Source: an uncultured Mailhella sp. (GTDB taxonomy: Bacteria; Desulfobacterota; Desulfovibrionia; Desulfovibrionales; Desulfovibrionaceae). From it: a stretch of 55,838 nucleotides of DNA. The position numbers were made by a program, and so were the translations under genes. The notes under the pieces were generated by a model. That model had not been told where the DNA came from and did not search any database. It saw nothing but the letters and a program-made list of their open reading frames with translations. Below, in pieces: positions 1,575 to 4,176 of this stretch; position 1 is the stretch's first letter, and the number at the start of each line of letters is the position of its first letter. The stretch covers positions 1-55,838 of the forward strand of contig CALUTB010000004.1 of assembly GCA_944323575.1 (NCBI GenBank), given 5' to 3'.

Positions 1575-1603
1575 TGACAGGAGACTTTGTTTTTGAGTAT
1601 GAA
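1574..1603 (+). promoter_or_regulatory. Probable promoter of the trpB leader
   Basis: TTGACA (1574-1579) and TATGAA (1598-1603) are separated by 18 bp, just upstream of the Trp-rich leader peptide. Transcription would start near 1610, so the leader peptide ATG at 1611 would be at or very near the transcript 5' end. This implies leaderless initiation or a start slightly different from predicted. Confidence 0.5.
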
Positions 1604-1610
1604 TGAGGCC

Positions 1611-1664
1611 ATGAATACGAACGCTTCCAGAACTCTTTCCTGCATGTGGTGGTGGCCCTGCTAA
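1611..1664 (+). CDS. trpL: trp-type attenuator leader peptide
   Basis: The 17-codon open frame reads MNTNASRTLSCMWWWPC and stops with TAA at 1662-1664. Three consecutive Trp codons near the end are the hallmark of a ribosome-mediated trp attenuator. An in-frame ATG at 1599 would add four residues (MNEA). No good Shine-Dalgarno sits at the usual distance from 1611; AGGAG at 1579-1583 is far from either start. The peptide lies inside a set of mutually exclusive RNA stems ahead of trpB. Its role is to sense charged tRNA-Trp by ribosome stalling, not to act as a protein. Confidence 0.85.
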   Translation: MNTNASRTLSCMWWWPC

Positions 1665-1738
1665 AGAGGCCGGGTTCTGGAGTATTATTTACAAGAGCAG
1701 CACATGAACCGCGGTCGGAGTGACGACCGCGGTTTTTT
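1627..1738 (+). promoter_or_regulatory. Transcription attenuator controlling trpB
   Basis: Three alternative pairings can be read directly. The pause stem pairs CCAGAAC (1627-1633) with GTTCTGG (1674-1680), enclosing the Trp codons. The antiterminator pairs 1668-1676 (GGCCGGGTT) with 1707-1716, with one bulged G. The terminator pairs AACCGCGGTCG (1707-1717) with CGACCGCGGTT (1724-1734), loop GAGTGA, followed by a run of six T (1733-1738). Stalling at the Trp codons would block the first stem and favour the antiterminator, allowing readthrough into trpB when tryptophan is scarce. Confidence 0.85.
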
Positions 1739-3177: not shown

Positions 3178-4176
3178 ATGAAGATTCTCCTCGACAGCGG
3201 AAGCGGCGGCAGGGCCTCGCAGAGGCTCATCTCAGATGTATTTCTTCGGCATTTCGACAACTCCATACTGCGTCGCATGGATGATGCCGCGATCTTTTCT
3301 CTGCAGGGATCCGTGGCCATGAGCACCGACGGGTACACCGTGACGCCTCTCTTCTTTCCGGGGGGCAGCATAGGAACTCTTGCCGTGCACGGTACGGTGA
3401 ACGACGTGTCCATGATGGGGGCACGTCCACGTTATCTTTCCTGCGGATTCATTATCGAGGAAGGACTTGAATTTGAGATCCTCGAACAAGTCGTGGCCGA
3501 CATGGCTTCGGCTGCGAACAAGGCCGGCGTCGACATCGTGACGGGCGATACCAAGGTCGTTCCCAGAGGAGCGTGCGACAAGATGTTCATCACTACGGCG
3601 GGAGTGGGAGAAGTGCTGACTGATCCTGCGCCTTCCGGCCATGCTGCACGTCCCGGCGACGCCGTCATCGTGAGCGGGGCCATGGGGGATCACGGACTTA
3701 CGGTTATGGCCGGACGGGATGGCCTGTCCTTTGCTGCGGATGTGGCGAGCGACAGCGCTCCGCTGAACTGCATGGTCGAGCGTCTGCTGCTCGAGGTAGG
3801 AGACATTCACGTATTACGGGATCCTACCCGTGGAGGTCTTGCTACCACTCTTAATGAGATAGTCGAGCAGTCAGGGGTGGGATGCAGGATCGAGGAAGCT
3901 GCCGTGCCTGTGCATGACAGCGTCCGGGCGGGTTGTGACGTTCTCGGTCTGGACCCCCTGTATCTTGCCAACGAAGGCAAGCTCATCTGCATTCTGCCCC
4001 GCGAAAAGGCGCAGGCTGCACTTGAGGTCATGCAATCGTGTGAGTTCGGTGCCGAAGCTGCCATTATCGGCGAGATTCTGGACACGGGGAAGTCCCGGGT
4101 GGAACTTCGCACCCTTATGGGCGGCACAAGGCTGCTTTCCATGCTTGAAGGGGCGCAGCTGCCCCGCATATGTTGA
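3178..4176 (+). CDS. hypE: Hydrogenase maturation protein HypE
   Basis: HypE dehydrates a C-terminal thiocarbamoylated cysteine, added by HypF, to the thiocyanate that donates cyanide to the hydrogenase iron. The 332-residue product ends in PRIC, the invariant HypE terminus carrying the modified cysteine. It also has the PurM/AIR-synthase-like N-terminus (SGSGGRAS, MDDAAIF, STDGYTVTP) and the MGDHG and DPTRGGLAT motifs. AAAGGG precedes the start. The next gene begins 7 bp downstream, so the two are probably cotranscribed. A 179-bp gap without a clear terminator separates it from trpB. Confidence 0.95.
   Translation: MKILLDSGSGGRASQRLISDVFLRHFDNSILRRMDDAAIFSLQGSVAMSTDGYTVTPLFFPGGSIGTLAVHGTVNDVSMMGARPRYLSCGFIIEEGLEFEILEQVVADMASAANKAGVDIVTGDTKVVPRGACDKMFITTAGVGEVLTDPAPSGHAARPGDAVIVSGAMGDHGLTVMAGRDGLSFAADVASDSAPLNCMVERLLLEVGDIHVLRDPTRGGLATTLNEIVEQSGVGCRIEEAAVPVHDSVRAGCDVLGLDPLYLANEGKLICILPREKAQAALEVMQSCEFGAEAAIIGEILDTGKSRVELRTLMGGTRLLSMLEGAQLPRIC

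Follow-up and report, generated by a model that had tools for sequence, protein, structure and literature searches.

A predicted leaderless tryptophan attenuator upstream of a stand-alone trpB in the Desulfovibrionales

Organization of the trpB locus

The window analyzed here is a stretch of 55,838 nucleotides from an uncultured Mailhella sp. (GenBank assembly GCA_944323575.1, contig CALUTB010000004.1), and represents contig C4 of a 2.77 Mb genome of 200 contigs. According to NCBIfam model matches, three genes lie in a row on its forward strand, to which all window coordinates below refer: hypD (394-1518), trpB (1787-2998), and hypE (3178-4176). The trpB gene (TIGR00263, 582 bits), which is preceded by a Shine-Dalgarno sequence (AAGGAG), encodes a TrpB1-type paralog outside the trp operon and belongs to a clade apart from operon trpB. 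It had been described as solitary in the original prediction, which is correct for its location but not for the genome, as a complete trpE-trpGD-trpC-trpF-trpB-trpA operon is found on another contig. The original prediction also stressed the hydrogenase genes beside it. While hypD and hypE do flank trpB here, the neighborhood differs at other leader loci; given this lack of conservation, a connection with hydrogenase maturation was discarded.

Upstream of trpB, a -35 box (TTGACA, 1574-1579) and a probable -10 box (TATGAA, 1598-1603; spacing 18) are followed by a short leader ORF of 17 codons, MNTNASRTLSCMWWWPC (1611-1664), which ends with a UAA stop codon (1662-1664) and contains three adjacent Trp codons (TGG TGG TGG, 1647-1655) that are kept in relatives. 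The start of the leader RNA is predicted at 1610-1611, so that the leader peptide would be translated from a leaderless transcript. The element had originally been outlined from 1599; the ATG at that position lies inside the probable -10 box, and the conserved start is the ATG at 1611. An Rfam scan of the window gave no family match above the gathering score.

Alternative RNA structures of the leader

Ribosome-mediated trp attenuation is a textbook mechanism, and the region between the leader start and trpB (1611-1738) has the parts that it requires. These are: (i) a 1:2 pause structure (1627-1680), in which the outer arms CCAGAAC (1627-1633) and GTTCTGG (1674-1680) are exact complements; (ii) a 2:3 antiterminator (1668-1716), in which 1668-1676 and 1707-1716 form nine pairs interrupted by a single bulged G (duplex -17.0 kcal/mol); and (iii) a 3:4 intrinsic terminator (1707-1738), with 11 perfect pairs between 1707-1717 and 1724-1734, a 6-base loop, and six T residues (1733-1738), two of which are within the stem. 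The leader, its Trp codons, and these three stems match the positions originally proposed, either exactly or to within a few bases. The original list omitted a nested hairpin (1653-1657/1668-1672), which starts inside the last of the three Trp codons and has the UAA stop codon between its arms. RNA 1611-1742 folds at -48.6 kcal/mol (z = -3.3 versus dinucleotide shuffles).

According to folding and covariation, the antiterminator and the terminator share a segment and are mutually exclusive. When the RNA left free by a ribosome at given codons was folded, with assumed ribosome footprints, each of the alternative pairings suggested earlier was obtained. In the absence of a ribosome the 1:2 structure forms (-25.3 kcal/mol). 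A ribosome on the first or the third Trp codon, with RNA polymerase at 1722, gives the 2:3 antiterminator (-15.0 and -15.3 kcal/mol, respectively), and a ribosome at the stop codon, with a footprint assumed to reach approximately 1677, leaves the terminator alone to fold (-23.8 kcal/mol). With this assumed footprint, the position of the stop codon would allow a terminating ribosome to mask segment 2. Since the footprints are assumed, the switching step is one that we infer.

These foldings are consistent with a classical ribosome-mediated attenuation mechanism. The A of the leader ATG would be the first base transcribed, and a ribosome would bind directly at this exposed 5' end. With abundant Trp-tRNA, the ribosome would reach the stop codon and cover segment 2, the 3:4 terminator would form, and RNA polymerase would stop before trpB. 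If Trp-tRNA were scarce, the ribosome would stall on the Trp codons and keep segment 1 unpaired; segments 2 and 3 would then pair, the terminator would not form, and trpB would be transcribed. This predicted response to tryptophan resembles that of E. coli trpL, which likewise has a short peptide with a Trp run, a 1:2 pause structure, a 2:3 antiterminator, a 3:4 terminator with a U-run, and a stop codon that lets the ribosome mask segment 2. The Mailhella leader differs in having three adjacent Trp codons rather than two, in its apparent lack of a 5' UTR and a Shine-Dalgarno motif, and in its target, a single trpB of probable salvage type rather than trpEDCBA.

Conservation and covariation in the Desulfovibrionales

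The TrpB protein was used to search relatives as well as 297 genomes from the order, and 132 of the latter match at E <= 1e-140. Among 134 oriented trpB loci, 87 have a tandem-Trp leader whose ATG follows the start of a TTGAC box by 34-40 nt. By our reading of the matches, about 22 genera from three families of the Desulfovibrionales are represented, and the trpB genes behind these leaders are stand-alone orthologs; the loci are related and do not represent 87 independent observations. Tandem Trp codons in a short ORF upstream of a trp gene are thus seen in the window and in 87 relatives. Outside the Trp run the leader peptides diverge widely (e.g., MNTNASRTLSCMWWWPC, MNVSYSNFTLYSWWWRS, MKTTVSSVSLLWWRHEIHAVGCVLA, MQTLRTAHTNLFWWWPCSTGPRGCACM).

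The best-conserved part of the element is the hairpin that starts in or beside the last Trp codon, and which follows nearly all leader peptides. Its arms change together (GGCCC/GGGCC, GGCUC/GAGCC, GGCAU/AUGCC, GGCAC/GUGCC, and GGCGC/GCGCC). Of the 114 variable pairs in 38 distinct arm combinations, 106 are formed, versus 66 +/- 4 (maximum 82) when arms are permuted. In an alignment of 30 sequences, pairing in the hairpin reaches 99.4%, and at one pair both sides have changed in 19 cases; shifting the partners in a sliding control abolishes the pairing. One pair shows all four Watson-Crick types. Compensatory changes are also found in the pause stem, which reads CCAAAAC/GTTTTGG in loci L012 and L013, and in the antiterminator, where C-G is replaced by U-A in a genus with a like change in the terminator. 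Thus the alignment of orthologous regions, which had been proposed as a check, finds pairing maintained by compensatory changes in both the post-Trp hairpin and the antiterminator. The Trp codons and stems are kept in relatives, whose absence from close relatives was to have counted against an attenuator, and that reading therefore stands. A chance origin of the element is ruled out by the covariation and conservation.

A strong terminator about 190 nt downstream of hypD could, by itself, be explained as the end of the hypD transcript, with the hairpin at 1707-1738 serving no other role and the Trp codons being coincidental. This explanation is scarcely credible, as the leader and stems persist in genera with other genes upstream, and the Trp codons, hairpin, and antiterminator co-vary.

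A covariance model built from the 30-sequence alignment finds the element as a single copy in the Mailhella genome (1635-1737, 72.7 bits). In a search of 59 genomes it gives 24 matches, which are distributed over 23 genomes and, with few exceptions, located at the lone trpB. Among 296 other genomes drawn from the phylum, searched with strict filters and including few leader-bearing genomes, it gave one weak match, before a DAHP synthase gene. At the Bacillota and other proteobacterial trpB loci examined, no similar leader was convincing. A loose DNA pattern for Trp leaders was uninformative in the Mailhella genome, with about a thousand matches.

The leader is absent, despite the same trpB, from most of genus g31 and from loci L011, L014, L017, and L027. 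In L011 and L014, which belong to the same genus, it is replaced upstream of trpB by a conserved stretch, GGCAGGTGATCAGTCCTGC ... GAAGGCTTTGGCAT, perhaps another regulator. In six loci of genus g36 the leader and hairpin are kept and a T-run terminator was not seen, so their output step must differ. Directly 5' of the -35 box in g36 loci L157, L159, L161, L163, L165, and L167 lies a palindrome-like sequence, GCATACTGTATACAAT. It resembles a repressor operator, and occurs in the same loci that are without the T-run terminator.

Sequence evidence for a probable leaderless start

The original prediction hinted at near-leaderless translation of the peptide, and the comparison of relatives strengthens this hint to a predicted leaderless start. 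When loci with an in-frame ATG-WW leader were scanned without a preset distance, the distance from TTGAC[AG] to ATG peaked at 35-39 nt; in the 87 loci, a set defined by this spacing, it is 34-40 nt in every case. The -10 boxes are weak to moderate. The base at -1 of the leader is C in 74% and T in 26% of the 87 loci, and never a purine. Bacterial transcription starts usually follow a rule of pyrimidine at -1 and purine at +1, and we know of no translation signal that would account for an invariant pyrimidine at this position. A Shine-Dalgarno-like motif precedes 4 of the 87 leaders, versus 78 of the 87 trpB starts. On these sequence signatures the leader looks truly leaderless; the evidence is strong, although not independent, as the loci are related.

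The trpE-A operon of the same genome has its own WWW leader, MSASVFIMSFAGQWWWRIFSSGRGCGLDA (L120 13261-13100, minus strand; contig C7), with a Shine-Dalgarno motif (AGGAG) and about 64 nt from the -35 box to the ATG. The genome therefore carries two differently built Trp attenuators, and uses ordinary leaders where these are wanted.

Because hypD is the preceding gene on the trpB strand of the window, the attenuator could be real and yet be transcribed from farther upstream, by read-through from hypD or from another promoter, with a longer 5' UTR. Such an arrangement is unlikely given the fixed distance from the -35 box to the ATG, the pyrimidine at -1 in all 87 loci, the dearth of Shine-Dalgarno motifs at the leaders, and the contrasting build of the trpE leader.

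The stand-alone TrpB and its likely role

In a tree of 69 rows, a clade with 100/99 support unites the lone trpB genes and is distinct from that of the order's main operon trpB (100/100); the nearest sampled relatives of the lone genes are from Bacillota and an Izimaplasma bacterium. The lone TrpB is of the TrpB1 type with complete catalytic motifs. No trpA lies beside trpB in 132 of the 134 loci, and the two exceptions are operon-type copies. The trpA gene is present in 71 of 80 genomes with a lone trpB and absent in nine. Neither trpC nor a convincing trpE was found in these nine, two of which are single-contig assemblies, and the weak trpE matches are probably related chorismate enzymes. 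Thus in nine relatives, as distinct from the Mailhella genome itself, trpB is located away from trpA and kept in the absence of the de novo genes. The tandem-Trp leader is present in eight of them; the leader of the ninth (L228) is weaker and ends in NWRRLW.

The likely job of the lone trpB, judging from gene content, is indole salvage. This is the best reading because a TrpB without the upstream pathway would gain most from an external supply of indole. A complete trp operon is also present in most host genomes, so the lone TrpB could serve de novo synthesis there, and in prototrophs such as the Mailhella of the window it could serve both uses. The stand-alone TrpB might instead be a Trp-induced isoenzyme that pairs with TrpA from the operon and contributes to de novo synthesis, not to salvage, which would agree with its full set of TrpB1-type catalytic motifs and with the 71 genomes that encode trpA. 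This is judged rather improbable, as the gene is kept in the nine genomes without trpA, trpC, or trpE, and its separate clade is never found adjoining trpA. With considerable confidence, the element is read as a ribosome-mediated, Trp-specific attenuator with a leaderless leader peptide. The gene that it would control encodes a second TrpB, for which the condensation of scavenged indole with serine is the most likely reaction.

A broader proposal, offered only tentatively, is that leaderless Trp leaders constitute a dedicated scavenging switch in the Desulfovibrionales, acting on trpB for indole and, in single genomes, on a phenylacetate-CoA-ligase-like gene or a TRAP transporter. The start at a bare AUG would then be a functional part of the sensor, and the sensor of the de novo trp operon would be built differently.

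Relation to known systems

We know of no earlier case in which an order-wide, predicted leaderless leader is combined with a single trpB of probable salvage type. No report of trp leader peptides in Desulfovibrio or the Desulfovibrionales was found in the open literature, which was the scope of the search. We know of no RNA attenuator for the salvage TrpB enzymes of Thermococcus and Bifidobacterium. In Thermococcus kodakarensis (TrpB2/TrpB1) and Bifidobacterium, TrpB makes Trp from external indole (studies cited in PMC11085991); the Desulfovibrionales enzyme is a stand-alone TrpB of the TrpB1 type. Attenuation had been presented as well known ahead of trpE-type operons; attenuators directly before trpB are also not unheard of. 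Candidates have been described for trpB1EDGC and trpB2A of Corynebacterium (PMC1262725) and for trpBA of Chlamydia, in the trpR-trpB intergenic region of a pathway used for indole utilization (PMC3937554). In those systems trpA or other trp genes lie downstream of trpB, whereas in the Desulfovibrionales it stands alone and its leader is predicted to be leaderless.

A leaderless trp leader peptide is already known from Sinorhizobium meliloti, an unrelated lineage, where the 5' end of the rnTrpL RNA is the trpL ATG (PMC7298713). S. meliloti trpL controls trpE(G), and trans-acting roles have been described for both its peptide (peTrpL) and its small RNA (rnTrpL). With a leaderless precedent of the same shape and a predicted terminated RNA of about 128 nt, the leader peptide or terminated RNA of the Desulfovibrionales might also act in trans. 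This seems quite unlikely, as the peptide is free to vary outside the Trp run and no conserved trans function is therefore visible.

With the attenuator reading, ribosome-mediated attenuation reaches across an entire order of sulfate reducers, which includes gut inhabitants that encounter indole, and 87 natural variants of a predicted leaderless leader peptide become available. The switch is linked to a gene that genomes lacking the biosynthetic pathway retain, probably to recycle indole, and what is annotated only as a second trpB is thereby given a suggested function.

Other Trp-rich leaders and tails

Several other Trp-rich sequences were observed. A second predicted leaderless Trp leader, MNPRTNPTFEGLWWRLP (L263; G026:C2:404552-404661, minus strand), precedes a phenylacetate-CoA-ligase-like gene in a genome without trpA, trpC, or trpE; the gene possibly represents another route of Trp scavenging. 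Locus L265 (G056:C97) has at its positions 1030-1146 a Trp leader, with 36 nt from -35 box to ATG and an attenuator-like hairpin, before TRAP-type transporter genes. In another family of the phylum, a Trp-rich leader, MLNKNINNRYWWWRWWRMEEFAVL, and a terminator (L264; G545:C73:11801-11921, minus strand) precede a DAHP synthase gene.

In many Desulfovibrionales, a prephenate-dehydrogenase-like (TyrA) gene with a C-terminal WWWR lies just upstream of trpE (L268, L269, L284, L288, L290, L291, L293, L294, and L297; also L232-L236, L238, and L241); between the two genes there is usually a terminator, along with a possible antiterminator. The TyrA tail may serve as a Trp-sensing leader of trpE. This role as sensor of the trpE operon is weakened by the occurrence of the tail where trpE is not adjacent, and the WWW tail may be a feature of the protein that was co-opted.
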